DNA of 24,136 nt from a virus: IMG/VR virus record IMGVR_UViG_3300005340_000200, positions 1 to 24,136 of that record. One strand, 5' to 3'. The notes under the pieces are model-generated. The model was not told where the DNA came from. It searched no databases and saw nothing but the letters and a program-made list of their open reading frames with translations. Position 1 is the stretch's first letter. Each line of letters begins with the position of its first letter. Shown piece after piece: positions 21 to 21,996 of the stretch. The position numbers and the translations under genes are program-made.

Positions 21-404
21 TTACTCTGATTTGGACGGATTGTCACTTTTCAGCAGCACCCATCGGCATACCTGTGTCCTGTTAGTCAGCCCGGTTTTAG
101 CGAATATCTCGCCGACGTAGACCTTTACCGTACCTTCGGTTAAGCTTAATTTTTCACCGATTTCCTTATTCAAATACCCTTCGGCGATCATGCCAGCGAT
201 CTGCAATTCCCTTAACGAAAGCGGCTTACCTAGAAGGCCAGATATCGCCGGCCGCCCGGTATTGCTCCTCGGCTTCCTGCAAGGCTGGCATATCTTGGCA
301 TCGCGGTTATTGTATTCGTACATCTGGAAATCGTGCCCACATCGGCAGCAATTTTTCCTATATGACGCCGAATAGATCGAGTCCGTCGAATTTAGCGCGC
401 CCAT
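21..404 (-). CDS. Zinc-ribbon protein with LuxR-type HTH
   Basis: A 127-residue putative DNA-binding regulator. The N-terminal part has two CxxC pairs (C19/C22 and C39/C42), as in a small zinc ribbon. Residues 62-117 match a LuxR/GerE-type helix-turn-helix: the LSLRELQIAGMIAEGYLNKE start, then a probable recognition helix near residues 89-105 (TEGTVKVYVGEIFAKTG). There is no receiver or autoinducer domain, so it would not be a classical two-component or quorum regulator. ATG at 404 overlaps the end of the upstream glycosyltransferase gene by 47 bases; this start keeps both zinc pairs, but no good ribosome binding site is visible. It is the last gene of the left operon. It could regulate the phage operons or host genes; target unknown. 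Confidence 0.8.
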   Translation of the reverse strand: MGALNSTDSIYSASYRKNCCRCGHDFQMYEYNNRDAKICQPCRKPRSNTGRPAISGLLGKPLSLRELQIAGMIAEGYLNKEIGEKLSLTEGTVKVYVGEIFAKTGLTNRTQVCRWVLLKSDNPSKSE

Positions 405-1248
405 ATTGTTCGACCAGTTTATGGCACTCCGCTTCCTGCCAAGGCTCCGCATCCACATTAAGATACTGCATCAGATCGGCGTACCCTTCCCACCATTCGG
501 GCGGAACTGCCGTCAAATCAAATGCAGGATCTCCCTGTGATGGCTTCTGTGGGGAACCGTACACTGACCAATTATAGCGCTCGTTGATAACTGCCAGCGT
601 ATCTCGCCCATGCCATCGGATTACCTCCGTCATCTTGTAAAGCGCCTGCTTAGCGAGCAACCGCCGTCGGCTGGAATACTGCAAGTGTAGTATTCCGCCG
701 CCGATATGCTTTACCGGCTGGAATGGCCGCTCCGGTAGACCCATCGGCGCGCGCTGGTGGAAGTCGTACCCGTTGCGCTGCTGCCAGTGAAACCGCGGAT
801 CGTCCTGAAACGCCGCGCTGGCGTGCTGCATCGCCCAGATACCGCTTCGGTGCTGCTGGTAGATGGAATCCCGGCAAGTGATCCAAGGAAGCTGCAGGAC
901 GTGCCCTGGCGGGATGTCTGCCACGATGTCGCGCATATGCGGCACGAGGTTCGCCGAGACCACTTCGTCAGCGTCGATTGTTACGACGTGGGTAGATTGC
1001 CGCATTCGGGCGAAATCAAGCAACCTTTGACGGTGCGCCATCTCCCGCCAGACCGGCTCCCGCTCGTAGATGACGGTCACTCCCTCGTCTATATTTTCAT
1101 CTATAAGGACTTGGCATATTCGCCGCGTGCCGTCCGTCGAACAGTGATCCAGGATCACCAGATGATCCACCCATCGAAGCAGCGCACGCGCCGACAGGCC
1201 GAGTACCCAGTCTTCGTTACGCGCTGGCATGATTGCGACTATCTTCAT
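358..1248 (-). CDS. Family 2-like glycosyltransferase
   Basis: A 296-residue GT-A-fold glycosyltransferase. The N-terminus MKIVAIMPARNEDW is the typical family 2 nucleotide-sugar-binding start, DHCSTDGT (34-41) follows, and IDADEV (91-96) holds the DxD metal/nucleotide-sugar motif. The C-terminal third has many aromatic and basic residues and no membrane segment, so it is probably cytoplasmic. ATG at 1248 is preceded by GGGAGA at good spacing; the frame continues upstream but that part is a shadow of the next gene. It overlaps the DUF7694-like gene by four bases (ATGA), which suggests translational coupling. Donor and acceptor cannot be inferred. It lies in a cluster with other sugar-transfer and methyl-transfer genes. 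Confidence 0.85.
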   Translation of the reverse strand: MKIVAIMPARNEDWVLGLSARALLRWVDHLVILDHCSTDGTRRICQVLIDENIDEGVTVIYEREPVWREMAHRQRLLDFARMRQSTHVVTIDADEVVSANLVPHMRDIVADIPPGHVLQLPWITCRDSIYQQHRSGIWAMQHASAAFQDDPRFHWQQRNGYDFHQRAPMGLPERPFQPVKHIGGGILHLQYSSRRRLLAKQALYKMTEVIRWHGRDTLAVINERYNWSVYGSPQKPSQGDPAFDLTAVPPEWWEGYADLMQYLNVDAEPWQEAECHKLVEQYGRAKFDGLDLFGVI

Positions 1249-1616
1249 ATCGATCTCCCGACATTCTCGACTACCGCGCTGAATTCCGGCAGCACTCTCC
1301 CATCGCCCTCCATGCATGCCCACAGGTGCAAGCAATGCGCGTGGATGTTGACGTACTGCGAACTGGGTGGCATCACCGCATAGGCATATCGCTCTCCAAT
1401 GAAGTCGGCCTTTACCATGACGGTATCGGCGTGCGATGGCGTCCAATCCTTGCGCGAATAGCTAACGTGGAGCCAAGGTTTCCCGTCATCCTTGAATTCG
1501 CAATCAACCAAGACGCGAAGTCCGCCGCCATTTTGCCGAATCTGGAATCCGTCACCCCATCTGCCGATTACCGTCCACCCCTTGGGGCAGATGAATTCCC
1601 ATCGAAACTCCGTCAT
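1245..1616 (-). CDS. DUF7694-like phage protein
   Basis: A 123-residue protein of unknown function. The second half (WLHVSYSRKDWTPSHADT, then YVNIHAHCLHLW at 89-99) resembles from memory the DUF7694 family of small phage proteins, whose mark is an aromatic-His-Cys-Leu-His-Leu-Trp end. The clustered His and Cys (H92, H94, C95, H97) could bind a metal, but that is inference. ATG at 1616 overlaps the stop of the upstream FkbM-like gene by four bases, and its own stop overlaps the next gene in the same way, so it is translated inside a coupled chain of sugar-modifying genes. Confidence 0.7.
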   Translation of the reverse strand: MTEFRWEFICPKGWTVIGRWGDGFQIRQNGGGLRVLVDCEFKDDGKPWLHVSYSRKDWTPSHADTVMVKADFIGERYAYAVMPPSSQYVNIHAHCLHLWACMEGDGRVLPEFSAVVENVGRSI

Positions 1617-2260
1617 AACCGCCCCTCGATCATGTTGGGATTCAGAAGCAGCACGTTGTCGCCGAAGTCTTGCATCAACGTCCACCCGGGCAGCATTTTA
1701 ATCAGATCGTCGCGCAGCGCCTGGCCGCGGTACAGCTCGACATCCTCGACTTCCATGAACAGATACCGCGTGCGCTCTAATGCCCTGCGGCCGCCGACGA
1801 TCATATCCCCCTCGGCGCCCTGGATGTCTACCCACAGCAAATCGATTTTGGTCAGCCAGTCCTTCGCGAAAATGGCATCCAGCGTCCAGGATGGAACGTG
1901 CGCGACTCCGGTAAACTGGACGTCTGGGTATCTGTCGTAATGGCCGGTCGGCCGACGGATCGATCCCGATGTGTGCGACCCGTCCGGAGACTCGCTGATA
2001 AAGAACGCCGATTCGCCGATGAATTCGGACACTACGCCCAGGATTAGCTTTCGGTTCTGGTCCAAACCCCGCGGGTGATCTAGAATCTTCTGCGCGTTCC
2101 ACATGTCCGGCTCGACCATGATGTAATGCGGATCTTCGCCGCATGCCGCGCGGAGCCATTCTTCGTCTTCGCCGGTGCGCGCCCCGAGTTCCACGATACA
2201 TGGACTCTCAATGGTCCGCATTACGCACCGGATTGCCGACTTCTCTGCGTCAGTTGCCAT
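1613..2260 (-). CDS. FkbM-like methyltransferase (second copy)
   Basis: A 215-residue probable SAM-dependent methyltransferase. VELGARTGED (23-32) corresponds to the glycine-rich SAM-binding motif I, and VEPDM (49-53) to the acidic end of the second strand. KIDLLWVDIQGAEGDMIVGG matches the conserved IDVEGAE-type segment of the FkbM family, whose characterised members O-methylate sugars or polyketide products. It overlaps the upstream FkbM-like gene by 11 bases; ATG at 2260 was chosen over an in-frame GTG at 2269. The two neighbouring copies are quite different in sequence, so they are probably not a recent duplication and may act on different positions or sugars. Confidence 0.75.
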   Translation of the reverse strand: MATDAEKSAIRCVMRTIESPCIVELGARTGEDEEWLRAACGEDPHYIMVEPDMWNAQKILDHPRGLDQNRKLILGVVSEFIGESAFFISESPDGSHTSGSIRRPTGHYDRYPDVQFTGVAHVPSWTLDAIFAKDWLTKIDLLWVDIQGAEGDMIVGGRRALERTRYLFMEVEDVELYRGQALRDDLIKMLPGWTLMQDFGDNVLLLNPNMIEGRL

Positions 2261-2861
2261 CGTGCCCACCGTGCCGCGCGAAGATCACGTTCTCGCCGTT
2301 CAAGTGCTCCATGCAGTAGCCCTGCAGCAACGCTAACTTCGTCAATTCAGCTTGCCGTCCGTCGTGCTCGACGCAGAAACATTTAGGCCGGCATTGTGGC
2401 CGAATCTGCATCATGCAGGCGAATAGCTCCGCGCTATTGCCCTCTACGTCGATATTAACGAAGTCGAAATCATGCCCAAACTGTGTGAACAGTTCCTGCA
2501 ACGTGATTGCCGGCGCCCAGAATCTCCCGTCGAACTGCGCTTTATCGCGCCACTTCTGATAGTGCGCGTCATTGCTCGTCCCGACGCCGGCCTCCGAATG
2601 TTGAAAGCGTGTTAGCTTGCGATCGGTTCCAACTGCTGCGCTAACGAGCTCGACGCGATCGCAGTTGCCGTACTCGATCAGCAGATCCAGGAACGGGCCC
2701 GGCGACGCTTCGACCATCACGCCGGACCAGCCGCGCTCGTATAGCGCGCGTGTGTTGGAGAACAGCTTCGGGTTGTAGGCGCCGATGTCGAGAAATCGCC
2801 CTGACTGATCACCAACGATTCGCAGGATGTGCTGCTCTTCGGCGTTCTGTGAATAGCTCAC
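2250..2861 (-). CDS. FkbM family methyltransferase
   Basis: A 203-residue methyltransferase of the FkbM type. YSQNAEEQHILRIV is the usual family start (SQxxEE), FLDIGAYNP (23-31) is the SAM-binding motif, GVMVEASPGP the next acidic strand end, and FVNIDVEGNSAELF the conserved family segment. Length is normal for a single-domain member. Start is GTG at 2861, with AAGG upstream, and GTGA overlaps the stop of the 45-residue zinc protein. Family knowledge suggests sugar O-methylation; the neighbouring glycosyltransferases support a role in finishing a glycan. Confidence 0.85.
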   Translation of the reverse strand: MSYSQNAEEQHILRIVGDQSGRFLDIGAYNPKLFSNTRALYERGWSGVMVEASPGPFLDLLIEYGNCDRVELVSAAVGTDRKLTRFQHSEAGVGTSNDAHYQKWRDKAQFDGRFWAPAITLQELFTQFGHDFDFVNIDVEGNSAELFACMMQIRPQCRPKCFCVEHDGRQAELTKLALLQGYCMEHLNGENVIFARHGGHDGN

Positions 2862-2995
2862 CGGCTTACCTTCTTTTTCTTAGCGCGTAGCTTTGGCGCA
2901 TTTGGACATCCTAATGCGTGGTCATATTCGCCGATCAGTTTCCTGATTCCCTTCGGCTTCATCGGTTGACCGCAATGTTTGCAGAGTTTATACAT
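2858..2995 (-). CDS. Small zinc-knuckle protein (45 aa)
   Basis: A 45-residue basic protein with one CxxC knuckle near the start (CKHCGQ, C5/C8), a further Cys in GCPNAPK, and a lysine/arginine-rich tail (LRAKKKKVSR). Its ATG lies inside the last codons of the upstream glycosyltransferase gene (ATGTATAA, eight bases shared) and its stop overlaps the GTG of the FkbM gene. The fit at both ends supports it as a real gene. It may be a tiny zinc-binding nucleic-acid-binding protein; function unknown. Confidence 0.7.
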   Translation of the reverse strand: MYKLCKHCGQPMKPKGIRKLIGEYDHALGCPNAPKLRAKKKKVSR

Positions 2996-3770
2996 TTCTA
3001 AACCTTGATCCTTCCAGGCTTTTGCCGTTTGCGTGACAGCCGACCTGCGTGAACAATTGCGGGTACAGATCCTGATCTTCGGGCTGCGTCGCCGCGTTCT
3101 GGCAGGCTTCGCGGTATAGCTTGTGGTGATACTTATAAGACAGCAACGTCATGATAGCCTGCTCCGTACGGTGCTCGTGTAGTTCCGGATGATCCTGCCT
3201 TAAATAACTCGCATCGAACGTAGTGGCCACGGGATTCAATGAGTATGTCATCCATTCCATTAGGAACTGTTGGACATTCCACGGGCCTTTCTGGAACAGC
3301 ATAAATCTCGCCACGCCATGTGGAGCATGCCCTTGGTGATGATGTTGGCCCATTACCAAAAAGCAATCGGCCTTACACCAGTTGAGATTATCGCAGCCGT
3401 ACGCGTTGAACAGCATCGTGCCGCCGATCCGCGCACACTCGTCGTATAGCATGCTGAAATCGTGGATCGGGAAGGTGTCGGCGTCAGTGTAGAGCACGAT
3501 GTCGCCCGGCTGGCAATAATGATCGAGCGCATGCAGGATGATAAACGGCTTCCAGCAGAACCAGCCGAACCCGCGCGGCTTGCGCTTCGGGTCCTGCGTA
3601 TCAGGATAGGTCCACAGCCATTTATTCAGGCGGTAGAACTCCTGGTCCATCAGCCAAGAGTCATCGTAGACGCGGACTTCGTCGGCACCGAAGCGCGGAG
3701 CGAACTCGACGATGCGGGATGTCGTCTCATCGTACGCCGCTCCGGAAAAGGTTATGTATAGCTTTTTCAA
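2988..3770 (-). CDS. Putative GT-A-fold glycosyltransferase
   Basis: A 260-residue protein with glycosyltransferase features: the start MKKLYITFSGAAYDETTSRI, an aromatic stretch ending in a cluster of Trp residues (FGWFCWKPF), and IVLYTDADTFPI with a DAD motif for divalent metal and nucleotide sugar. The later half holds His-rich segments (GQHHHQGHAPHG). It resembles hypothetical transferases in bacterial polysaccharide clusters, but I cannot assign a family number. Start is TTG at 3770, whose TTGA overlaps the stop of the preceding gene. Donor and acceptor unknown. Confidence 0.75.
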   Translation of the reverse strand: MKKLYITFSGAAYDETTSRIVEFAPRFGADEVRVYDDSWLMDQEFYRLNKWLWTYPDTQDPKRKPRGFGWFCWKPFIILHALDHYCQPGDIVLYTDADTFPIHDFSMLYDECARIGGTMLFNAYGCDNLNWCKADCFLVMGQHHHQGHAPHGVARFMLFQKGPWNVQQFLMEWMTYSLNPVATTFDASYLRQDHPELHEHRTEQAIMTLLSYKYHHKLYREACQNAATQPEDQDLYPQLFTQVGCHANGKSLEGSRFRNV

Positions 3771-4018
3771 TCTGTGGCCGCCTCAAAAAAAGATACGCAC
3801 CGATCAACATATCTGTCGCTTCCCATTTTCGCGATGTACTCGGACACATCGCACTTGCGAGTCACCACAAAGGGCTGATCTTTAATCATGAACGTGTCGC
3901 CGACATCGACCGGCTTCGGCGAACCGAAAATAAACGGCGGCGGCGTGCGCTGTAAGTACTCAAGCGCTATATCAGCCCCACATCCGGATGCGTCATATCC
4001 CTGGCCCCAATTTTTCAT
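3767..4018 (-). CDS. Hypothetical protein, first gene after promoter P1
   Basis: An 83-residue soluble protein that I do not recognise. It begins MKNWGQGYDASGCG and has a proline-rich stretch (RTPPPFIFGSPKP, 24-36) before a likely beta-rich half (VDVGDTFMIKDQPFVVTR). ATG at 4018 lies only eight bases after a strong -10 box, so the mRNA is predicted to start at or next to the start codon; the in-frame ATG at 4048 would fall inside the promoter and is rejected. Seven T residues near the end (about 3780) form a homopolymer, a place where sequence errors or slippage could occur. Confidence 0.75.
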   Translation of the reverse strand: MKNWGQGYDASGCGADIALEYLQRTPPPFIFGSPKPVDVGDTFMIKDQPFVVTRKCDVSEYIAKMGSDRYVDRCVSFFEAATD

Positions 4019-4026
4019 AGAATCCA

Positions 4027-4055
4027 AGTATCCGCTATACGGATACACTTGTCAA
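4027..4055 (-). promoter_or_regulatory. Promoter P1 with palindromic operator
   Basis: On the minus strand TTGACA (4050-4055) and GATACT (4027-4032) are separated by exactly 17 bases. Palindrome TATCCGCTATACGGATA at 4029-4045 lies over the spacer and the -10 box. The start codon follows the -10 box after eight bases, which predicts a leaderless or one-base-leader mRNA. It drives the left operon (4018 to 21). The same layout is seen at four other sites. Confidence 0.85.
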
Positions 4056-4062
4056 TAGCGGA

Positions 4063-4251
4063 TCATCTGGCATTTTCGGACTCACGCTTAACCATCAATC
4101 TGCATTTCGAGCACACGTTTCCTAAATCTTCTGGCATTTTCTTCGTATAGAAATTCTCGCCATCCACAGACAATCCGCACTTAGTCACCAAAACGCCGCA
4201 ATGCCACAGCGGATTCCGTCCACGCTTTTTCTTCGTCCATCCCATGCTCAT
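4063..4251 (-). CDS. Small Cys-rich protein (62 aa)
   Basis: A 62-residue basic protein with four main Cys: C18 and C25 in the first half (HCGVLVTKCGL) and C47/C50 in the VCSKCRLM segment, spaced so that a zinc site is plausible. The N-terminus is rich in Lys and Arg (GWTKKKRGRNP). ATG at 4251 overlaps the upstream glycosyltransferase stop by four bases. It is the last gene before promoter P1, whose -35 box begins only eight bases after its stop. Function unknown; related in style to the other tiny zinc proteins here. Confidence 0.65.
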   Translation of the reverse strand: MSMGWTKKKRGRNPLWHCGVLVTKCGLSVDGENFYTKKMPEDLGNVCSKCRLMVKRESENAR

Positions 4252-5000
4252 AATGGATCACTACCAGGCCAGCCCGCCGCCTTGCGTTTCACGAACAGAT
4301 TCCCGGAGTCCTGCCAATGCTGGTGGGTGTTAACTGGCTGTAAAAATTCAGGACAATCTTTTATATTCGCGAATTCGTCGCCTGGCCGCCGACCCCAATG
4401 TTGGTGAAGTTGGATAAGATCCGGCCTCGCCCAATAGACGCCCAGCTTTTCAGCCACTTCCTTCAGTTCTTCGTCGGCGTACATGTGGTGATATCCGGCG
4501 AACATCGGGCCGTTGCCTTGATACGCGCGCTTCACCCACTCGCGCCCGAACCAAGGGCTACCTGCGATTCGGTCGATATACGCGCCGCGATTCTCGCCGT
4601 ACTGTCGGCGCGCGGCCGGTGTATCTCCCCAGCGGTCGCCCGTGGGCTGCATGACACCGAAGGTCGTATCGTATGGCGTTGCGTTCGGTCGTCTCCATAA
4701 AATATCCGTAAAGTGGTCGAGACATTCTTCGCCGATCTCGTCCGCAGTCTTCGACCGGTCCGGTTCGTAATCATCGCCGCCGCTAACGATCCATTCCGCG
4801 TGCTGGTCATGCTCAACGACCCACTGCGCCAGAATGTTGACGCTCGGCGCCCAGCCGCGGTATTCGCCGGTCGGGATCTGCACCTCGCAGTCTATCGGCT
4901 CGCCCTGACGCAGAACCGCGACCTTGTAGCCCATCTCGCGCCATAGCGGGATCGTGCCGCCGCCCGGGCGGATGCTTGGGATTACGAACCAAACGCTCAA
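4248..5000 (-). CDS. Glycosyltransferase-like protein
   Basis: A 250-residue protein with a GT-A-like layout: the start MSVWFVIPSIRPGGGTIPLW, then EWIVSGGDDYEPD around residues 68-80, where the acidic run takes the place of the DxD motif. The middle segment FGVMQPTGDRWG followed by YIDRIAGSPWFGREWVKRAY recalls from memory a glycosyltransferase-like family seen in soil phages. A His-rich helix (LIQLHQHWGRR) lies near the C-terminus. Start is TTG at 5000, with GGTGAG upstream, and TTGA overlaps the preceding stop. It is probably a sugar transferase, but activity is inferred from the fold and from neighbours. Confidence 0.7.
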   Translation of the reverse strand: MSVWFVIPSIRPGGGTIPLWREMGYKVAVLRQGEPIDCEVQIPTGEYRGWAPSVNILAQWVVEHDQHAEWIVSGGDDYEPDRSKTADEIGEECLDHFTDILWRRPNATPYDTTFGVMQPTGDRWGDTPAARRQYGENRGAYIDRIAGSPWFGREWVKRAYQGNGPMFAGYHHMYADEELKEVAEKLGVYWARPDLIQLHQHWGRRPGDEFANIKDCPEFLQPVNTHQHWQDSGNLFVKRKAAGWPGSDPL

Positions 5001-5191
5001 GATCTCACCTTATCCCTTTCCGCTATTGCTTCTGCCCTTCCGGCTTCAGACAGCCTGTCCCATTCTGCCCAGCCGTATTCAGGCTCTGGCCAGTCGGCAG
5101 CAGCCATTTCAGCAGCAGTCGCCGCATGCACCGGGCAAGACCACAGCGGCGAGCAAGCATAAGGGAAACACTCCAAAGGCACACCTTTCAT
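4997..5191 (-). CDS. Hypothetical protein (64 aa)
   Basis: A 64-residue protein between two glycosyltransferase genes. It starts MKGVPLECFPYACSPLWSCP, with three Cys among aromatic residues, then becomes acidic and Trp-rich (ADWPEPEYGWAEWDRL) and ends in a charged helix (EAGRAEAIAERDKVRS). No family recognised. ATG at 5191 overlaps the stop of the upstream gene by four bases and has GAGG just upstream; the longer in-frame extension would run through the neighbour and is rejected. Confidence 0.6.
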   Translation of the reverse strand: MKGVPLECFPYACSPLWSCPVHAATAAEMAAADWPEPEYGWAEWDRLSEAGRAEAIAERDKVRS

Positions 5192-5847
5192 AGCCTCATA
5201 GCCTCCCTGCAATGGCCGTCCCATTCCGGAACGCGCGTCCATTCCCGCGCGCCCGCTGCGATCTTCGAGCACGTGTTGCCACCGTGGATCGACGCAATCA
5301 TAAGCGGTTCATCCCGAAATATCCCTGTACCATCAGGCTGCAGGGTCAGAGCTTCAACGCTCGCTATCTTCACGCCCTTATTGAACCAGTACAGATCGTC
5401 GCAGCCTTCCGACCGATCCGGAAACGGATGCCGCTCCCATGTTTCGCGCCAGTAGCACATGCTGGTGCCTATCGCGTAATTCGGGATTGACGCGCGATAG
5501 AGCCACGCTTCGGCGTCGAACGTGCATGGCGCTGATTCGTCCCAGAACAGCATCTCATGATAACCGAAGCAATCCGCGCCACTCGATTGCAGCAGCGCAA
5601 CCTGCTCGGCGATGCGGTTAGGATGGCTCCAATCATCGCTGTCCCAATGGCAGATGATGTCCGGCTTAATCGCGCCGCCTGCGTTGGCTTCATTCCGCAA
5701 TGCGCCTATCGATTTCTGCCCGTGATTGTCGTAACGGATCATGTATCGTTTCTCGTAAGTCTGCGTCTCGAAGCATCGTTCCGCGCGTGCTACCATTTCC
5801 GGCCGGCCGTTTGCCAGCATTACGCAGGCGACTATCGGCGCGCTCAT
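5188..5847 (-). CDS. Family 2 glycosyltransferase
   Basis: A 219-residue glycosyltransferase. MSAPIVACVMLANGRPEMV is a family 2-like start, and IICHWDSDDWSHPNRI (65-79) gives the DxD/DSDD metal motif with the usual WxHPxR continuation. TDSxx-like acidic and aromatic residues (EGCDDLYWFNKG) later in the protein probably form part of the acceptor site. No membrane segment is seen. It begins with ATG at 5847, overlapping the stop of the 39-residue protein. It is shorter than many family 2 enzymes but complete in its catalytic half. Confidence 0.85.
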   Translation of the reverse strand: MSAPIVACVMLANGRPEMVARAERCFETQTYEKRYMIRYDNHGQKSIGALRNEANAGGAIKPDIICHWDSDDWSHPNRIAEQVALLQSSGADCFGYHEMLFWDESAPCTFDAEAWLYRASIPNYAIGTSMCYWRETWERHPFPDRSEGCDDLYWFNKGVKIASVEALTLQPDGTGIFRDEPLMIASIHGGNTCSKIAAGAREWTRVPEWDGHCREAMRL

Positions 5848-5963
5848 CGGTATCCCGCCTCATACGTGCGCAGGCAGCGCCTGCAAGCGTAAACGCCGCC
5901 CATCGGCAAATAGATTGATCTGTGGAAGTGCCTGCACCACCAGCGGCAGATTCGCTCGATCAT
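5844..5963 (-). CDS. Tiny Cys/His-rich protein (39 aa)
   Basis: A 39-residue protein: MIERICRWWCRHFHRS, then a hydrophobic stretch, then VYACRRCLRTYEAGYR. C6 and C10 with H12 and H14, and the closing CRRC pair, make a small zinc site likely. ATG at 5963 overlaps the stop of the upstream zinc-ribbon gene (ATGA), and its own stop overlaps the glycosyltransferase start, so its reading frame is fixed at both ends. Too short for a function assignment. Confidence 0.6.
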   Translation of the reverse strand: MIERICRWWCRHFHRSIYLPMGGVYACRRCLRTYEAGYR

Positions 5964-6238
5964 TTGTCCATCCTCACGTTCTTGGTGATCGCCGGCCCAT
6001 TGCCCTTGCGCGTCGTCTTTTTGACGAGCATTTCCGGCGTACAGTATCGCCATTTGACCGTGCGGCAACCGTCTGCCGGGCAGCGCCTGGGCGACACCGG
6101 GCCCGATTGCGGCCATTCGTGACCGCACTTCTGGCACTTGTTGATCGTGATGCCCATCAGCGCGTTACCTTCGCAGTTAGGGCAACCATGCCGGCCGCAC
6201 TCGTCGCCGAATCGATACCCGCAGAATTCGCATTGCAT
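5960..6238 (-). CDS. Double zinc-ribbon protein
   Basis: A 92-residue protein with eight or more Cys in pairs: CEFCGYRF, CGRHGCPNC, CQKCGHEW and CPADGC. The pattern resembles tandem rubredoxin-like zinc ribbons found in small phage proteins that bind nucleic acid or protein partners. The long start (ATG 6238) is chosen because it keeps the first ribbon; it overlaps the preceding gene by 82 bases. A shorter start (ATG 6157, 65 residues) would begin exactly at the upstream stop with a TGATG junction and keep only the second ribbon. Both forms may be made. Confidence 0.65.
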   Translation of the reverse strand: MQCEFCGYRFGDECGRHGCPNCEGNALMGITINKCQKCGHEWPQSGPVSPRRCPADGCRTVKWRYCTPEMLVKKTTRKGNGPAITKNVRMDK

Positions 6239-6522
6239 ACTTCCACCATGAACCGCTTGGGAACGCGCGCCCCACCGTCGAACTTTTCGGGCAGTTGTCC
6301 GTCTTCGATGTACGCCCATTGCCGATCTGTTAGTCCGTCGATTTCGTTGCCAACGTCGCGCACCAGCCCAACCATCGCCTGCTTTCCTTGCGCACGTAAG
6401 TCCTCAGCGCGTTCTGCCGCTTTACGAAATGTGTCGTAATGAATCATGCTGATCACGTCAACTTCATTCTCGAGGTCTGTATCTTCGACCTCTTCAGTTA
6501 CCCACTCGTAGCCGACGCTCAT
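6157..6522 (-). CDS. Hypothetical protein (121 aa)
   Basis: A 121-residue acidic protein with no recognised domain. The first part, YEWVTEEVEDTDLENEVDV, is strongly acidic; the centre is a likely helical segment (FRKAAERAEDLRAQGKQAM). The last 27 residues are of simpler composition and lie in DNA that also encodes the first zinc ribbon of the next gene, so this tail may be shaped by the overlap. ATG at 6522 overlaps the stop of the small membrane protein by four bases. Confidence 0.65.
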   Translation of the reverse strand: MSVGYEWVTEEVEDTDLENEVDVISMIHYDTFRKAAERAEDLRAQGKQAMVGLVRDVGNEIDGLTDRQWAYIEDGQLPEKFDGGARVPKRFMVEVCNANSAGIDSATSAAGMVALTAKVTR

Positions 6523-6638
6523 CGCGTCACCGCAATCGTGACGAGCTTCGCCACTCTGTTCTGCGCCAGTTCAAATTGCGGCAGCGCGAACACGTAGAAA
6601 ACGATCAATCCGAAACAAACCGGGAAAAGTAGTCTCAT
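6519..6638 (-). CDS. Small single-pass membrane protein (39 aa)
   Basis: A 39-residue protein, MRLLFPVCFGLIVFYVFALP followed by a polar tail. Residues 3-19 form one hydrophobic segment that could be a membrane anchor or an uncleaved signal. The start at 6638 is supported by AGGAG seven bases or so upstream; an in-frame extension to TTG at 6776 exists but would run through the structured leader. It is the first gene after promoter P5 and the 200-base leader. Its first 12 bases equal those of the exported protein gene at 20416. Function unknown. Confidence 0.6.
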   Translation of the reverse strand: MRLLFPVCFGLIVFYVFALPQFELAQNRVAKLVTIAVTR

Positions 6639-6843
6639 ATTGCTCCTAAAGAACCCGCCGCCAACTACCTCCCCCGAGATTTGCCAGCGGCGGGCCGAGT
6701 CGAACACAATGAAGTGAGATTGAGTTGTGTAGGCGTGTTTGGGATGACGCCTCGTTTTTAACTTTATCCGCGCCAAAACGTTTAGGATTGGATCTTGCCC
6801 GCATCAAGGCTAACCCCGGACAAGCTCACATTCAATCTCACAT
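6639..6843 (-). promoter_or_regulatory. Structured leader RNA behind promoter P5
   Basis: No convincing gene lies in these 205 bases, although a 52-residue frame (6646-6804) and an in-frame TTG extension of the next gene are open. The transcript can fold in an ordered way: the 5' end GTGAGATTGA (6832-6841) pairs perfectly with TCAATCTCAC (6714-6723), enclosing CTTGTCC (6818-6824) with GGGCAAG (6794-6800) and AGGCGT (6747-6752) with ACGCCT (6731-6736). A further perfect stem, CCCGCCGC (6687-6694) with GCGGCGGG (6654-6661), sits just before the AGGAG of the first gene. This is the layout of a sensor domain followed by an expression switch, but no known riboswitch class is recognised. Confidence 0.5.
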
Positions 6844-6847
6844 GAAC

Positions 6848-6876
6848 AGTATCCGCCATACGGATGCTATTTGCAA
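6848..6876 (-). promoter_or_regulatory. Promoter P5 with palindromic operator
   Basis: Minus-strand -35 TTGCAA (6871-6876) and -10 GATACT (6848-6853) with a 17-base spacer. The operator TATCCGCCATACGGATG (6850-6866) differs from the consensus palindrome at its last base, and the -35 box differs from TTGACA at two bases, so this may be the weakest of the five. The first two ATG codons downstream are each followed directly by TGA. It drives the operon from 6638 to 4063. Confidence 0.7.
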
Positions 6877-6879
6877 GTA

Positions 6880-7461
6880 TTATTTTAAGGGGATTTCCCA
6901 GCGAACCTTTGCAGATGCATCGGCTTCTATTCCGTTTGTATTCCAGCGATACTTTCTGCTAGTACCTGCCCGGTTTCCGCTGCGGTCTCGTACCCGCGGC
7001 TGTGAAACGTACTCTGCTGTCCATCCGGCTGCTTTATATATCGTGCCCTGATGGACAGCCGTATCTTGATAGGAAATTAGCCGTTCTCGATCCGGCGCGT
7101 TCTTCTTGAACCATCGGACCATCCAGGACAGAAACGCGGAGCATGTATTCTTGGGAACATCTGGCGCGCACGCCATCCGGCGCAGTTCAAGCCAGTGACT
7201 AGGCAAGCATCTCGCGCTTGGACTATTCCACAGAGCCACGGCATAGGTAACCCCTGCATGCTGTGCGCGAAACGCATACTCCCAAGGTCCGTCTTGGCAG
7301 TTGGGTAATCTGGAATGCCACAGACGCACTAAAGCCACAGCATGAGGCCGAGGACATCGCTCGAAAATCAATTGCTTAATTTGGAGCGTGGAGGCCGGGA
7401 TTGAACCGCCTTCTTCCGTTTGGAACAACGGACACACTACCCTAGTGCTATCCACGCTCAT
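6880..7461 (-). CDS. Mom-like DNA-modification acyltransferase
   Basis: A GNAT-fold-like protein of up to 193 residues. The segment WLELRRMACAPDVPKNTCSA, followed by ERLISYQDTAVHQGTIYKAA and GW, resembles the Mom/XF1762-like family, in which ELxRL, PKN, SYxD and GxIYxAxxW are typical. Mu Mom modifies adenines in phage DNA and protects it from restriction. The C-terminal tail is basic and may bind DNA. The start is uncertain: ATG at 7461 is one base after the upstream stop, but codons 1-27 then run through a tRNA-like sequence. If that RNA is real, TTG at 7371 is a better start, close to where family members begin. Family call from memory. Confidence 0.65.
   Translation of the reverse strand: MSVDSTRVVCPLFQTEEGGSIPASTLQIKQLIFERCPRPHAVALVRLWHSRLPNCQDGPWEYAFRAQHAGVTYAVALWNSPSARCLPSHWLELRRMACAPDVPKNTCSAFLSWMVRWFKKNAPDRERLISYQDTAVHQGTIYKAAGWTAEYVSQPRVRDRSGNRAGTSRKYRWNTNGIEADASAKVRWEIPLK
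7382..7457 (-). tRNA. tRNA-like sequence, possible tRNA-Gly (TCC)
   Basis: Seventy-six bases, ending in CCA, with most parts of a tRNA: acceptor strands GCGTGGA and TCCACGC (extendable to nine pairs), a D arm GCAC/GTGT around TAGGGTA, an anticodon stem TCCGT/ACGGA, and a T loop TTCAATC. U33 would be followed by TCC (glycine) and AA, and the discriminator is T, as in many tRNA-Gly. Two defects are seen: the anticodon loop has eight bases, and the T stem GGCGG/CCGGC has a mismatch or a bulged G next to the acceptor. It could be a divergent phage tRNA, a decayed one, or a mimic. Translated, it gives the usual tRNA-derived string EGGSIPAST. Confidence 0.45.
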
Positions 7462-13895: not shown

Positions 13896-14040
13896 GCCGG
13901 GTCGGCTGGCAGCGGAAAAGAGGTACGCCCCAGCCGAGCCCGACGATCCGTAGTGTCCAGGTAGCTAGCCCGACAACGACACCACGGATATAATACGCCG
14001 ATTCCGGCGTTCTGTCTAGCCTAGATTGTACATGGTTCAC
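13852..14040 (-). CDS. Small membrane-segment protein (62 aa)
   Basis: A 62-residue protein starting at GTG 14040, which overlaps the methyltransferase stop as GTGA. Residues about 17-42 (YIRGVVVGLATWTLRIVGLG) are hydrophobic enough for one weak membrane segment, interrupted by Arg. The basic tail (RHDEKRGKLEG) is encoded in the same DNA as the first codons of the DUF1376 gene. The GTGA coupling supports it, but the composition is not strongly gene-like. Function unknown. Confidence 0.5.
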   Translation of the reverse strand: MNHVQSRLDRTPESAYYIRGVVVGLATWTLRIVGLGWGVPLFRCQPTRHDEKRGKLEGPTVF

Positions 14041-15044
14041 GCGGTCGCCTCAGAGTTAAACATGGGCATGTCCCCGATAATTCGCCGGCGCGAAATCTCC
14101 GCGTACGTCGGGTTTAGTTCGCAGCCGATGAAGTCTCGCCCGTGCCGGAGTGCCACCACCCCGACAGTGCCGCTACCCGCGAACGGATCGAGCACCGTGC
14201 CGCCTGACGGGCTGCCTGCCATCACGCAAGGCTCGACGAGCTGCGTTGGCATGACGGCGAAGTGCGCGTCAGGGTAGGCGTGAGTACCGATCGTCCACAC
14301 GTCCCGCTTGTTGCGCAGCGTGGAGCACTGCTCGGATTTCTCCATTGCATCCCATCGGTCATTGAATCCGGCGTGCCGGCGCCCGTGACCGCGCTGCTTG
14401 TCCGTCTTTCGCGTCCCCGTTTGTGGGGTCTGCCCAGGGGCAGAATATCCGGGGCCCGTCGCGTCGTGCTCGTTAATGGCGACTCCGGGTTCTTTGATGG
14501 CGTCCGCATCGTAGAAATACCGCGCGCTGCGCGTCAGCAGGAATAGATATTCATGCGCCTTCGTCGGGCGATCTGTGACGCTCTCCGGCATCGGGTTGGG
14601 CTTGTGCCAGATGATGTCGCTGCGGAGATACCAGCCGTCCGCTTGCAGCGCGAAGGCGACGCGCCAGGGGATACCAACGAGATCCTTCGGCTTGAGTCCT
14701 TCCGGTTGAGCCGCGCGCCGCGCTTCTTTGATGGCCGTGTGGGTAGCCTGCTTTGAACCTTCCGCCCATGTGCCAAATGAGGAGCGCCCGCCGCTGGTAT
14801 ACGAATCGCCCAGGTTAACCCAACAGGTGCCATCTGCCCGCAGCACGCGCCGCACTTCGCGGAATACGCCGACCATCGCGGCAACGTACTCCTCTGGCGT
14901 GCGCTCTAGCCCCAACTGGCCGACGACGCCATAATCGCGTAGCCCCCAATACGGCGGCGATGTAACGCAGCAGTGGACAGACTCATCAGGAAGCGAGCGT
15001 AGCCCGTCGAGCACATCGGCGCAAATTATCCTGAACGTGCTCAC
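14037..15044 (-). CDS. DNA methyltransferase (TSPPY type)
   Basis: A 335-residue SAM-dependent DNA methyltransferase that methylates the exocyclic amino group of adenine or cytosine. Motif IV TSPPYWGLRDYG (28-39) comes before motif I DPFAGSGT (286-293), the beta-class order; SPPY is more common for N4-cytosine enzymes but TSPPY also occurs in adenine enzymes. IIWHKPNPMP (144-153) is the usual next block. No restriction gene lies beside it, so it is probably an orphan phage enzyme that guards its DNA or marks it for expression. GTG at 15044 overlaps the upstream stop (GTGA). Target sequence unknown. Confidence 0.92.
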   Translation of the reverse strand: MSTFRIICADVLDGLRSLPDESVHCCVTSPPYWGLRDYGVVGQLGLERTPEEYVAAMVGVFREVRRVLRADGTCWVNLGDSYTSGGRSSFGTWAEGSKQATHTAIKEARRAAQPEGLKPKDLVGIPWRVAFALQADGWYLRSDIIWHKPNPMPESVTDRPTKAHEYLFLLTRSARYFYDADAIKEPGVAINEHDATGPGYSAPGQTPQTGTRKTDKQRGHGRRHAGFNDRWDAMEKSEQCSTLRNKRDVWTIGTHAYPDAHFAVMPTQLVEPCVMAGSPSGGTVLDPFAGSGTVGVVALRHGRDFIGCELNPTYAEISRRRIIGDMPMFNSEATA

Positions 15045-15794: not shown

Positions 15795-16313
15795 CTATAT
15801 CCTCCCTCGATTTAATCCACTCTTGCGGTAATGCTCCACAAATCCGGCGACCGATGCTGGGAAGTCTTCGCCTGCGATCCACGTAAGTGCGCCGCGTGCC
15901 CGCTCTTTCGTGTGCCATTCGGTCTGATGCTTGGCCGGTTTCTCTCCTGGTCGCTTAAACTCGATCCAGAGAACCTGAGATTGGCTGGCTCTGGCTACCG
16001 TATCGCCGGGGGTTCGTGTGGGTTCTTCTAGCCATTCCTGTGGAGTCGAAAAGCTATACCGGATGTACAAATGGTCTGCCATCCCCGGCTCGCCGAAGCC
16101 CTTGCCCCTGCCGCGGTCGCTTACTGGATCAGTGCGCAGCGCGCGCCAGCCATCCGTCTCGAGCAATCTCGTGCATTCGGCCTCGATCATGTGCTCGGGC
16201 CATTCAACGGACGCGTCGAAGGATTCTACGCCGATATGTGAATCTGGTACGGTTATTTCCCCGCGGTTGATTGCCATGCGTCGCTCCATCTCCCTGAATT
16301 CGTCTTCTGTCAT
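15795..16313 (-). CDS. VRR-NUC-type nuclease
   Basis: A 172-residue protein with the marks of the VRR-NUC/PD-(D/E)XK family: E45 in MIEAECTRLL, GMAD with D80, the core VLWIEFKRPG with E118 and K120, and Q130 before the final Trp-His. Members act as Holliday-junction or structure-specific nucleases. The acidic N-terminus (TEDEFREMERR) is extra. It lies behind the YqaJ exonuclease and ERF protein, so it probably helps to resolve recombination or replication intermediates. The ribosome binding site is weak; an inverted repeat lies just upstream. Confidence 0.8.
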   Translation of the reverse strand: MTEDEFREMERRMAINRGEITVPDSHIGVESFDASVEWPEHMIEAECTRLLETDGWRALRTDPVSDRGRGKGFGEPGMADHLYIRYSFSTPQEWLEEPTRTPGDTVARASQSQVLWIEFKRPGEKPAKHQTEWHTKERARGALTWIAGEDFPASVAGFVEHYRKSGLNRGRI

Positions 16314-16316
16314 AAA

Positions 16317-16472
16317 TTAAATCCCGCCGGACTTCATCGAGCCTCCGGGCATTGGTGGCGTTAGCAGTGGAAGGTCTCCTTGTGCCCTGCTCGAACCGGC
16401 GGGAAACTGGTGGGCGCATTTGGGAATCCTGAAGATTTGAGATAGCCAGGCTCCCAGTAAGTATGCGCCCAT
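16317..16472 (-). CDS. Possible small protein (51 aa)
   Basis: This 156-base frame fills the gap between YqaJ and VRR-NUC: ATG at 16472 is four bases after the YqaJ stop, and it reads MGAYLLGAWLSQIFRIPKCA, then a Pro/Gly-rich end. No ribosome binding site is seen. The same gap holds an inverted repeat, TCCCGCCGG (16396-16404) with CCGGCGGGA (16322-16330) in minus-strand terms, then TTTAATTT, so it may instead be an untranslated regulatory spacer. Confidence 0.3.
   Translation of the reverse strand: MGAYLLGAWLSQIFRIPKCAHQFPAGSSRAQGDLPLLTPPMPGGSMKSGGI
16322..16404 (-). repeat. Inverted repeat before the VRR-NUC gene
   Basis: Nine-base perfect arms, TCCCGCCGG and CCGGCGGGA, are 65 bases apart. 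On the minus strand the second arm is followed by TTTAATTT and then the ATG at 16313. The loop is long for a terminator, but the stem could reduce readthrough or change translation of VRR-NUC. Confidence 0.4.
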
Positions 16473-16476
16473 AACT

Positions 16477-17202
16477 TTAAGATTGCGGAATAATCGCGCC
16501 GTTCTGAATCAGCGCGTCAATATCGTCATCGCTCACGCCCATCCCGTCGAACCGGTCCGGCAGTGGTTTCTTGCGCTCGAATGGCCCATACTCCTGCGCC
16601 AACTTCTCGCGAAGCTTCATCATCGTTTCGGAGAACGCATCCAGCGCGGCAGACAGCGCCTTGATGTACTTCTCGTCGCGCGTAACTCGCACGATGACGG
16701 CTGGCAATTCTTCCGAATAGGAAACCAGATCCCAATATTCCCGCTCGCAGATCCATAAGCATCCCTGCACCTGCGCCTTGTGTGCGTCGGACATCGCGCG
16801 CTCGATCATCGCTTGGACATGAACGCCGATTGCCTGGGGGTGCGTCTTGATCTCCAACCCGCCCGGCGCGCCCACTACGAAGCGATCCGGCGAGCAACCG
16901 AATCGACCGCAATCGGTCGTGACGAAGCCGATCTTTTCTACCGCACATTCGGCCTGGAAGCAGTATGCTTTTACCGCACGATCTTCCAGTTCCTTCCCGA
17001 TCTGCATGTATTCCGTCTCGATCATCTCCTGCGCGTGGCCGGTCATCCACTCGCCCAGCAGGCGGTACATGTAGCCCGGTGCCTGCGAGCTTAACTCTAG
17101 TTTCTTAGGCGTGAGGATCTTCGAGAACTCCGAAGCAGTCGGTACGCCGCATCGCAGTTCATGCCATTCCTGGGTACCCTGTTCGCAATTATGGATAATC
17201 AT
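16477..17202 (-). CDS. YqaJ-type viral exonuclease
   Basis: A 241-residue member of the YqaJ/lambda-exonuclease family. EQGTQEWHELRCGVPTASEF (7-26) is the family start, GKELEDRAVKAY (69-80) the next block, and GCSPDRFV with D106, then GLEIKTH with E117 and K119, is the catalytic PD-(D/E)XK core. HKAQVQGCLWI carries the conserved Gln. It digests one strand of double-stranded DNA ends to yield 3' single strands, which the neighbouring ERF protein anneals. ATG at 17202 overlaps the ERF stop by four bases, which fits co-production of the pair. Confidence 0.92.
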   Translation of the reverse strand: MIIHNCEQGTQEWHELRCGVPTASEFSKILTPKKLELSSQAPGYMYRLLGEWMTGHAQEMIETEYMQIGKELEDRAVKAYCFQAECAVEKIGFVTTDCGRFGCSPDRFVVGAPGGLEIKTHPQAIGVHVQAMIERAMSDAHKAQVQGCLWICEREYWDLVSYSEELPAVIVRVTRDEKYIKALSAALDAFSETMMKLREKLAQEYGPFERKKPLPDRFDGMGVSDDDIDALIQNGAIIPQS

Positions 17203-17972
17203 TTCGCCTGCGCCCTCCGTTTGCTAGCCAGCGCCTGCATGATGTCCTTGTAGCGGCGTTGCGGAATCTCTTCGACCGTGCGAACGTCTGCGAGTTGGAA
17301 GAATGCCGCGCGGCCAGCCGCTGACATTCCGATCTCGCTGATAAGCGAGTTGATATCGTCGACCTGATCCTGTGAGATTGCGCCAGCCCGCATGCCGTCA
17401 TCGTCCGCGCCAACCGTGACGATGTTCCATATCCCGATTGTCAGATACCGCTTGTTGTAGCTGTCGGCGCTGCCCTGCGCCTGCGCATCGTTGCGCCCGG
17501 GCCCACCGTCCGGTGATTGGTACCGCGTCGAGCTTCTGCTATGGCCGCCGCGATGAACCAGCGTAACTGTCATTAGGCTACCCGACTTTTCAAGCGGCGC
17601 GGTCGAGAACGTCCGACAGAATCCGTACTTCTGCTCAATCGGCCGGATGATTCGGTCAAGCTGCTCATAGGAAGCGTAAGGGATAGAACCCTTGCCGCCC
17701 ATGTCTTTGGCTTTGTCCTTCCGAATCGTGGGCATCTCGGACATTGCGCCCGCAAAGTCAATATTGAACTGCCGCTCTGCTTCGCGTGCTTCGGCCCGCT
17801 CCTGCAGCCCCATGAGCGCTGCCAGTTTCTCGACGTTAACGCGCTCGTCGACTGCTAGCGCCTGGATAACCTCGATGACGCTGGGCTGATGGGCGATTGC
17901 CTTCTCTTCGCCGCGCCGGATCAGCCCGCGCACGTCGTCATCTACGGACCGCTTGAATTCTTCCTGCGTCAT
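17199..17972 (-). CDS. erf: ERF-family single-strand annealing protein
   Basis: A 257-residue ERF-superfamily recombinase. The core lies at about 65-185: FAGAMSEMPTIRKDKAKD, YASYEQLDRIIRPIEQKYGF, SLMTVTLVHRGGHSRSS and the QGSADSYNKRYLTIGIWNI stretch, typical of P22 Erf relatives. It anneals complementary single strands during phage recombination, circularisation and replication, together with the exonuclease. The C-terminal 60 residues (DDINSLISEIGMSAAGRAAF) resemble a small helical partner-binding domain. ATG at 17972 overlaps the upstream 58-residue gene. Confidence 0.93.
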   Translation of the reverse strand: MTQEEFKRSVDDDVRGLIRRGEEKAIAHQPSVIEVIQALAVDERVNVEKLAALMGLQERAEAREAERQFNIDFAGAMSEMPTIRKDKAKDMGGKGSIPYASYEQLDRIIRPIEQKYGFCRTFSTAPLEKSGSLMTVTLVHRGGHSRSSTRYQSPDGGPGRNDAQAQGSADSYNKRYLTIGIWNIVTVGADDDGMRAGAISQDQVDDINSLISEIGMSAAGRAAFFQLADVRTVEEIPQRRYKDIMQALASKRRAQAK

Positions 17973-19438: not shown

Positions 19439-20416
19439 TTATTTTACGTAGTTCGGAATTGGTCGCCAAATCTGATGAGATGCCGGATCATGCGGGCCCA
19501 CGTCCGCCAATACGCCCAGAATGGACAGCCCCGGAAGTTTGGCCCATAGCATCCCAGTGCAATCGGCAACGTACGTTTTGCCAGTTACCGGATCGATGTG
19601 GGAATCGCTGCCGGAGCATTGCAGAATCACGGGTTTAGTGGACTGCCCTGCAACGTTCAAGTTGCCGATTATCCCCTGATATCCGCACGCTTCCCACGTC
19701 AAAGATCCGGATGTTAATTTGCTGAGATCTCCTGGGATTTCCGCGCCGCTTACTGGGTCCTTGGACCACGCATTTAAGGCTATAACCACCGAATACGGCC
19801 CGATGAACTGCCCCGGCGTCGGGCGGGAAGTCCAACATACGGCGTTTCCGCTGCTGTCTGCCATCGGTACATCTGTGCCGGTCATTTCATTGTGATTAGT
19901 CCCAGGTCTGCCCATTGAGGCTGTGACGCGCGTCTGCCCAAGGAATCGATCAGTGATGCAAAGCTGAATCTGCTCCCAGCGCTGGCTTCCGGGCACGTTG
20001 TTCATGATCTCGATTTCCTGCGTCTGCGCCGCGGCCGTGATGTCGGTACCGACCTTGACTATTCCCGACTTACAGGAGATTCTAACGCTTGAATCCGGCG
20101 GCGTATTGCCCTCCGCGCATGCCCAGTTCTCGATCCATTGTTGATAGCTTACATAAGGCACTGCCACGCCGTTGATCGTAGTTGAAAGGGAGAGCCTGTG
20201 CGGAAAAACGACAGAGAACTGGTCACCGATGGAATAGACCAGCGGCGAAACTATCGCCATCTTGCCCGGTGGCCTGCTAAAGGTGAAATCAGCGCCCTGC
20301 CGCAGTAGCCTGCCGTTGCGAAAAACCTGGACAGCACCCGACGCGGAGCCGATCATTTGGTATTGGCACGTCTGGGAATAGGCGCATCCCACTAAAGCCA
20401 GTAGAAGTAGTCTCAT
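19439..20416 (-). CDS. Exported protein or lipoprotein (325 aa)
   Basis: A 325-residue protein with a short hydrophobic signal, MRLLLLALVGCAYSQT. LVGC (8-11) meets the lipobox pattern, so lipidation at C11 is possible; ordinary cleavage after AYS is the alternative. The mature part is beta-rich (QVFRNGRLLRQGADFTFSRP, then GDQFSVVFPHRLSLST) and has several Cys and Thr/Gly stretches, as in surface or fibre proteins. ATG at 20416 overlaps the upstream basic-protein stop by four bases. Its stop lies 15 bases before the -35 box of P4. Third exported protein in the window; role unknown. Confidence 0.75.
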   Translation of the reverse strand: MRLLLLALVGCAYSQTCQYQMIGSASGAVQVFRNGRLLRQGADFTFSRPPGKMAIVSPLVYSIGDQFSVVFPHRLSLSTTINGVAVPYVSYQQWIENWACAEGNTPPDSSVRISCKSGIVKVGTDITAAAQTQEIEIMNNVPGSQRWEQIQLCITDRFLGQTRVTASMGRPGTNHNEMTGTDVPMADSSGNAVCWTSRPTPGQFIGPYSVVIALNAWSKDPVSGAEIPGDLSKLTSGSLTWEACGYQGIIGNLNVAGQSTKPVILQCSGSDSHIDPVTGKTYVADCTGMLWAKLPGLSILGVLADVGPHDPASHQIWRPIPNYVK

Positions 20417-20590: not shown

Positions 20591-21925
20591 TTAAATCTCG
20601 TAGTTCAATACCGCTTTGGCCGCTTCGCTGCGTAGTTCGTGCGGGTATGGGACGCTCGGCGCCGGCCTATCCAGAAACCAGCACAGCTTATTCCAGCCAT
20701 CTCCCAAGTGGTAAGTCAACAGATCCCCAGGACGATCCTTGAAATATTCCCATACCTCTGCGTTATGCCGGTGATAGCGCTTGGCAAATGTCGCCCGGTC
20801 TGGAGTCTTGCAGCCGTATAGAAGCTGGTGCATCTTGTGAGTGAACGGCGCGATGTCCCAGAATTTCCGGTGCGGATTAACTGCCGGGTCCCAGTGTCGC
20901 TCGACGCTTCGTAGCCAGTCGTGCTCAGGCCGAACCGTCAGGATGAACTTACTGCCCGGATAGGCTTTATCAAGTTGGCGAAATAGGATCGTAAACGGTA
21001 GATCGCAAAAGGCATAATGCTGGTCGACCAATGTCGAACGTCCATCGAGCGTAACCTGCTGCCACACATCGCGCGCCCAGTTTGCGGTACCCCAATGATG
21101 CGAATTGATCCCCAGGATGCCGAACGCCTTATCGAGCGACGTCGTCCCGGTCTTATGCATGCCGATCCCGAATACTCTAGTTGGCAATGCGCCAATTACT
21201 CTCTGCTTTCCGGCGATATTGCGGCATACCGTGCCCATGCCCACCTTGCCGAAATTGGCAATCGAGCTCGCCGGATTGCATGCCGACCGTTCGCCGTACG
21301 CCGTTCCAGCTACCTCTGGGTAGTCCTTGAACCGCGCTTTGTCGGTGTGCTTCACGGCGTGTAGAAAGCGGCGGTCAATCTCGGCCGACTCAATCCCTAA
21401 CACGCGAAGCCGGATTTTAAAATCCTCATCATCCGGACCCCATGTGTTGTACCGCTCGTCATACCCGCCAGCCATGAGGAAAGCATTGCGGGTTACCGCC
21501 ATGCGGCCATTGATGCCGCGCGTCATCTCGCCTTTGACCATCCGCGACCACATGAAGTACTCTTGCCCGCAAAACGCCGCAGCAGAAAATTCCTTCTCTA
21601 GGTAATCGGCGAACCCCTTTCCGGCGAAGTTGTCGGCGTCAAGATTAACCAGGACGTCGCCGCCCTCGGCGATGCCCAGCCGGTGCGCCATGTTCTTCGC
21701 GTGCGCCATTGCGAACCGTTCCGGCTCGAATGTCGAATACAGTGCCAGCCGTCCGGATGCCAGATCCGCAGCGTGATGTTCCATGACATACTTGACCAGA
21801 TCGTCGCCGGAGTTGTAATTCAGAAGAACGAATTTCGCGTTTGGATTGTCTGCAAGGTTTTGCGGCAGAGTCTGTTTGACGTGGTGCGCCCGACCTTTAC
21901 AGGTTGTGCAAAATACTATATTCAA
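20591..21925 (-). CDS. Glycosyltransferase-sulfotransferase fusion
   Basis: A 444-residue two-domain enzyme. Residues 1-235 are a GT-A glycosyltransferase: MNIVFCTTCKGRAHHVKQTL start, VLVNLDADNF (91-100) with the DxD motif, GGYDERYNTWGPDDEDF (153-169) at the acceptor end. Residues 250-444 are a P-loop sulfotransferase: RVFGIGMHKTGTTSLDKAF with the 5'-phosphosulfate loop HKTGTTS (257-263), and FILTVRPEHDWLRSVERHW with the 3'-phosphate-binding R and S. It would transfer a sugar and then sulfate, using nucleotide sugar and PAPS, perhaps on one glycan. TTG at 21925 follows GGGAGG at four bases; that site is buried in a hairpin. The fusion is unusual for a phage. Confidence 0.85.
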   Translation of the reverse strand: MNIVFCTTCKGRAHHVKQTLPQNLADNPNAKFVLLNYNSGDDLVKYVMEHHAADLASGRLALYSTFEPERFAMAHAKNMAHRLGIAEGGDVLVNLDADNFAGKGFADYLEKEFSAAAFCGQEYFMWSRMVKGEMTRGINGRMAVTRNAFLMAGGYDERYNTWGPDDEDFKIRLRVLGIESAEIDRRFLHAVKHTDKARFKDYPEVAGTAYGERSACNPASSIANFGKVGMGTVCRNIAGKQRVIGALPTRVFGIGMHKTGTTSLDKAFGILGINSHHWGTANWARDVWQQVTLDGRSTLVDQHYAFCDLPFTILFRQLDKAYPGSKFILTVRPEHDWLRSVERHWDPAVNPHRKFWDIAPFTHKMHQLLYGCKTPDRATFAKRYHRHNAEVWEYFKDRPGDLLTYHLGDGWNKLCWFLDRPAPSVPYPHELRSEAAKAVLNYEI

Positions 21926-21996
21926 GGAACCTCCCAAAGTTTTATTACCGTCGACGGGAACGGCTAAACCGCCCGCTGGAAACTTTGGGAGGAACC
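21926..21996 (-). promoter_or_regulatory. RNA hairpin that buries the ribosome binding site
   Basis: On the minus strand CCTCCCAAAGTTT (21980-21992) pairs perfectly with AAACTTTGGGAGG (21930-21942), 13 pairs, extended by two more after a 2x2 loop. The GGGAGG of the fusion gene lies wholly within the stem, next to its TTG start. The 37-base loop can form an inner stem (CGGGCGG with CCG and CCCG). The 135 bases between 21926 and 22060 have no gene. This fits a translational switch; trigger unknown. Confidence 0.6.

Follow-up and report, generated by a model that had tools for sequence, protein, structure and literature searches.

A probable phage enzyme joining sugar transfer and PAPS-dependent sulfation in one chain, with APS kinase genes beside it in some relatives

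The gene located on the minus strand at positions 20591-21925 of the analysed DNA joins a GT-A glycosyltransferase and a sulfotransferase in a single chain and very probably encodes a phage enzyme which adds a sugar and attaches a sulfate. Judged by the families of its two halves, sugar transfer together with PAPS-dependent sulfation of a glycan is its likely activity. The window, that is the whole stretch of DNA under analysis, comprises 24,136 bases and is an entire IMG/VR virus record classed as linear, therefore it is probably a fragment. New here is the presence of APS-kinase-family genes beside the fusion in 6 of 63 virus records. It can be proposed, with a confidence which falls a little short of probable, that there is a phage-run sulfated-glycan pathway consisting of the fusion and, in some phages, a dedicated downstream APS kinase for PAPS, the sulfated sugar being placed on the host envelope or on the virion. 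The gene and its putative functional elements are as follows.

20591..21925, minus strand: glycosyltransferase-sulfotransferase fusion gene of 444 codons and a stop codon, with TTG as start; Pfam matches, fusion kept in 72 other virus contigs
21930..21935, minus strand: Shine-Dalgarno-like GGGAGG, 4 bases 5' of the TTG, read from the sequence
21311..21925, minus strand: GT-A glycosyltransferase domain, residues 1-205; PF10111/PF02709, AlphaFold/Foldseek matches to heparosan and chondroitin synthases and WrtF
21632..21640, minus strand: DxD motif D96-A97-D98; both Asp in 68 of 68 aligned members
21182..21310, minus strand: linker and C-terminal part of the glycosyltransferase half, residues 206-248, with an NxGxxGxG element; alignment, model confidence, dN/dS
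20636..21181, minus strand: Sulfotransfer_4 domain, residues 249-430; PF17784, matches to Schistosoma sulfotransferase, Cpz8 with PAP, and SgdX2
21137..21157, minus strand: 5'-phosphosulfate loop HKTGTTS, residues 257-263; K/R258, T259 and T261 each in 69/69, S263 in 67/69
21002..21004, minus strand: D308, in 69/69; aligns with the hydroxyl-binding Asp of Schistosoma sulfotransferases
20906..20932, minus strand: 3'-phosphate site R332...S340; R332 in 68/69 (one Lys), S340 in 66/69

Before the choice of the TTG start, mechanical ORF listing gave a frame of 20591..21937 and 448 aa. The TTG at 21925 is considered the better start because GGGAGG lies four bases upstream at 21935-21930, which results in a protein of 444 aa; a GGGAGG-type site also precedes the TTG in the related contigs L002/L006. 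The preliminary description of this DNA, which spoke of one 444-residue chain with a glycosyltransferase and a sulfotransferase, is thus borne out by the single ORF and by Pfam matches to both halves, and the DxD motif and HKTGTTS phosphosulfate loop named in it are found as D96-A97-D98 and H257-K-T-G-T-T-S263. The curated Pfam cut-offs are passed by Sulfotransfer_4 PF17784 (131.7 bits, cut-off 22.8, E 4.5e-38), Glyco_tranf_2_2 PF10111 (28.0 bits, cut-off 27.3, E 1.9e-6) and Glyco_transf_7C PF02709 (26.2 bits, cut-off 23, E 6.4e-6), and the NCBIfam search with the fusion protein gave no match. Structure prediction and search of both halves, a check suggested in the same description, yielded one confident two-domain AlphaFold model (mean pLDDT 89.1, pTM 0.89; 31 aligned sequences as input) with low confidence at residues 210-212 within the linker. 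In Foldseek the glycosyltransferase half of this model matches GT-A enzymes (heparosan and chondroitin synthases, the WrtF fucosyltransferase, GtrB), and the other half matches PAPS sulfotransferases, namely those of Schistosoma, Cpz8 (one entry with PAP) and SgdX2. Residue conservation was counted over 69 distinct fused proteins, in all of which H193 is invariant, and H277 is also invariant or nearly so; H193 may be a metal ligand of the glycosyltransferase half. In the Schistosoma enzyme SmSULT it is Asp91 that binds the accepting hydroxyl (PMC4618941). The preliminary description would have been refuted by a lack of PAPS-binding residues on alignment; these are conserved across the 69 proteins, and the view that the putative active sites of both halves are intact is supported.

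The fusion is a recurrent one. In the first scan of viral contigs it was found over its full length, at 84 and 81% identity, in the independent contigs L002 and L003, which have neighbouring genes in common with the window, and a profile scan added members of 46-55% identity over the full length. A query with the sulfotransferase half retrieved 77 virus loci, 72 of which hold the glycosyltransferase half in the same open frame; of the others, L088 and L119 are cut by contig ends, and in L121, L122 and L124 the sulfotransferase ORFs, which belong to this family, are unfused and arranged in tandem. As fused proteins were the source of the query (A4), unfused phage sulfotransferases are under-sampled in this count. 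Together with the window, 73 IMG/VR records carry the fusion, on contigs from many metagenomes. When the sulfotransferase half was compared by tblastn with 50,697 phage records no match was found. Two further full-length fusions lie in genome (MAG) contigs, placed by reading ORF sequences: in L027 the gene adjoins a phage-terminase-like gene in a locus nearly identical to virus contig L104, and in L028 it sits among cellular-looking genes. Among 385 genomes of the class to which L028 belongs, the full fusion was detected in the L028 genome only (threshold 1e-20).

The preliminary description had pointed to a frameshift or an assembly join between the domains as the event that would undo it, and such an artefact, uniting two unrelated genes, is now so improbable that it can be practically disregarded. 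None was found for the window, and a broken frame inside the sulfotransferase half was seen in L120 alone, where the fusion gene L120:3200-4590 has this half split over two frames, owing to a sequencing error or as a broken gene. The artefact was rejected as the frame runs from one domain into the other uninterrupted by a stop codon and the fusion recurs at full length in independent contigs, 72 virus contigs besides the window; evidence of selection and of the model speaks against it too. For the three closest members dN/dS, where dS could be estimated, amounts to 0.05-0.08 in the glycosyltransferase half and 0.04-0.09 in the sulfotransferase half, values indicating that both halves are under purifying selection, and the linker (residues 206-248) is the least constrained part (0.09-0.27). 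In phylogeny the fused glycosyltransferase halves form one clade against 17 unfused glycosyltransferases with a support of 0.965, and the support for the sulfotransferase half is 0.56.

Neighbouring genes were searched in 63 fusion-bearing virus records, the window's among them. Clustering of neighbouring ORFs revealed an APS kinase family gene adjoining the fusion in L053, L081, L101, L105 and L118, with Pfam E values of 2.8e-45 to 2.9e-61, and all five pass the TIGR00455 cut-off. In a sixth locus the longer ORF L063:4507-5376, which overlaps the end of the fusion, has an APS-kinase-like N-terminus (E 2e-15); the segment after it bears the nucleotidyltransferase-like motif GRYQPFHDGH. In all, such a gene lies 0-1 kb downstream of the fusion in 6/63 records (gaps from the fusion end of 452, 229, 989, -7, -3 and -87 nt); the APS kinase search matched 7/63, the seventh, G437, being weak. 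As a background, 5/50,697 phage records match the L105 kinase query, and the contrast with 6/63 is approximate, since the five include a genome contig of Salmonella and searching with one sequence is less sensitive than searching with a profile. The association was noticed in the data and had not been predicted, so that the placement probability of 1.2e-8, computed post hoc, is descriptive. APS kinase catalyses the PAPS-making step, and these neighbours support PAPS-dependent sulfation of a sugar. ATP sulfurylase (PF01747) was absent from the 63 records, therefore APS would be supplied by the host.

Genes for sugar metabolism stand beside the fusion in several relatives. L013 has GDP-mannose dehydratase and GDP-fucose synthase, a hint that GDP-fucose is the donor in that phage only, and L010 has an epimerase, a DegT aminotransferase and a glycosyltransferase. 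Methyltransferase neighbours occur in L007 and L010, and by tally or sequence also in L071 and L077, and a glycosyltransferase-like ORF lies near the fusion in L095. Proteins of ~260-290 aa that share a conserved GDC motif make up a family encoded beside the fusion in 18 loci (e.g. L009:5150-5926 and L118:5322-6149); the two members scanned gave no Pfam match, and a papain-like nature is a guess. In L107 an adenylosuccinate synthetase gene (5923-6981, PHROG of the 2-aminoadenylosuccinate type) is located near the fusion.

All the other window genes described here are on the minus strand. The gene directly downstream of the fusion (19439-20416) has a signal-like N-terminus, no family match and a poor AlphaFold model (pLDDT 48), and its product is 46% identical in L002 and L003 compared with about 80% for the fusion. 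Recombination genes occupy 15795-17972; they comprise those for a RecE-like exonuclease and an Erf-like annealing protein and an ORF that is endonuclease-like. An N6/N4 DNA methylase (PF01555, E 1.1e-48) lies at 14037-15044 and a Mom-like DNA modification protein at 6880-7461 (phrog_1384, E 2.9e-20; Pfam Mom PF25680, E 1.6e-13). The stretch from 358 to 5847 contains a pair of FkbM methyltransferase genes (1613-2269 and 2250-2861) and two further genes of GT2 or GT2-like type, with other ORFs between them, which by their predicted functions make a second glycan-related region of the window's record.

It is supposed that the bifunctional enzyme would be produced in the infected cell, where the GT-A domain would move a sugar from a nucleotide sugar, with the DxD motif serving for metal as in its family, and the sulfotransferase domain would use PAPS to sulfate a hydroxyl group, in the simplest case on the sugar just added or on its neighbour. 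This order of the two activities is presumed; the direct hand-over suggested in the preliminary description would be one possibility, and the halves could also act on different acceptor sites. PAPS would be provided by the host, and in a few relatives the adjoining phage APS kinase would raise its supply; the product would be a sulfated glycan. As regards the acceptor, a membrane-bound or lipid-linked glycan of the host envelope, reached from the cytosolic face, is tentatively taken as the most likely one, and its modification may change the cell surface, e.g. against superinfecting phages. C-terminal hydrophobic anchors are present in 3/69 proteins (L064, L095 and L101), and L105 ends in an amphipathic tail rich in Trp, which suggests that these four members work at the membrane; the three anchors mildly favour an envelope or lipid-linked acceptor. 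Extensions of 118-174 residues beyond the sulfotransferase domain occur in L109, L114, L101 and L095, that of L109 being a domain-sized tail. The domain part has no membrane segment and most members look soluble. Both the membrane and the APS kinase arguments rest on relatives, because the window's own record holds no APS kinase gene and its fusion protein has no membrane tail. A point against sulfation of a glycan is that Sulfotransfer_4 enzymes of known substrate use small molecules or drugs and not polysaccharides.

Virion glycosylation is known from other phages, and a virion protein, with the sulfated sugar added to capsid or tail, follows closely as a candidate, albeit a rather doubtful one; a sulfated sugar on a virion or host surface was what the preliminary description suggested. 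A virion acceptor agrees with the soluble appearance of most members and with the position of the fusion near structural or lysis genes in some related viruses, however a C-terminal anchor ties three members to the membrane and clustering of neighbouring ORFs linked no conserved structural gene with the fusion across the family. Putative capsid glycosyltransferases are mentioned in the cited part of a mycobacteriophage note (PMC11256854). An unlikely reading is that both halves work on one compound which is not a polymer, the sulfate going to a small molecule or to the headgroup of a lipid, with a sulfoglycolipid or a metabolite as the product: the solved Sulfotransfer_4 relatives (the Schistosoma enzyme, Cpz8 and SgdX2) do use small molecules and three members have membrane tails, nevertheless the sugar-nucleotide and FkbM-type methyltransferase neighbours fit glycan decoration.

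Phage DNA is known to carry glycosylated bases as well, and it might be supposed that the first half glycosylates a hydroxylated base which the second half sulfates. Such hypermodification would agree with two window genes, the Mom-like one and that for the N6/N4 DNA methylase, and a sulfotransferase-based base modification is mentioned, with reference to Iyer 2013, in the cited statement of PMC10829341. This acceptor is nonetheless quite improbable. It is disfavoured because the genes concerned are nearly absent: Tet/JBP was above the cut-off in 0/63 and the thymidylate-synthase family in 4/63 of the records searched, many of which are fragments, and neither was found in G000. The glycosyltransferase half, moreover, resembles glycan polymerases, and a DNA acceptor fits poorly with sugar-nucleotide neighbours and membrane tails.

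The fusion offers a defined candidate for the making of sulfated glycans by phages; the sulfotransferases listed from phages until now have had an unclear function. Taken with the APS kinase neighbours, the fusion predicts PAPS in and sulfated sugar out. If this is true, a single chain able both to add a sugar and to sulfate it could also be put to good use in glycan synthesis. The preliminary description called glycan sulfation rare in phages, which does not hold well, as sulfotransferases are already listed among viral auxiliary genes, with a function called unclear, in the cited parts of PMC8290583 and PMC10580990, and the fusion itself occurs in 73 IMG/VR records. Predicted sulfotransferases of giant viruses have also been reported in the literature. 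A phage-run route to sulfated sugars seems to have no earlier description; no relevant open-licence paper was found on a glycosyltransferase-sulfotransferase fusion or on an APS kinase accompanying a phage sulfotransferase, which is weak evidence of absence. In BFVD a 412-aa Caudovirales protein, named only as a GT-A protein, aligns over 443 columns, therefore related proteins may already sit in databases under other names.

Among known systems, the auxiliary sulfotransferases of OM43 phages and of glacier-ice viruses are likewise predicted PAPS sulfotransferases in phage genomes (PMC10580990, PMC8290583, as far as the cited parts go), but those of OM43 phages belong to Sulfotransfer_3 (PF13469), and no glycosyltransferase fusion is mentioned in those parts. 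With the Sulfotransfer_4 enzymes (the oxamniquine-activating sulfotransferase of Schistosoma, Streptomyces Cpz8 and SgdX2) the fusion shares the fold, the 5'-phosphosulfate loop, the R...S 3'-phosphate site and the hydroxyl Asp; it differs from these single-domain proteins in being joined to a glycosyltransferase, and the identity in structural alignments is about 21-28%. GT-A enzymes of the chondroitin/heparosan synthase and beta-1,4-galactosyltransferase type have in common with it the fold, the DxD motif, the Gly-Gly-Tyr-Asp-Glu motif and the W..D-D-x-D region, whereas the fusion has a single short glycosyltransferase domain, weakly similar in sequence to those of known structure (best 2z86/2z87, E 0.011). 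Phages also carry genes for O-antigen modification such as GtrB. This phage glycosyltransferase acting at the host membrane, which is a Foldseek match of the glycosyltransferase half, is the nearest functional model for an envelope acceptor; in contrast to GtrB, the fusion has no polytopic membrane part and adds a sulfate step.
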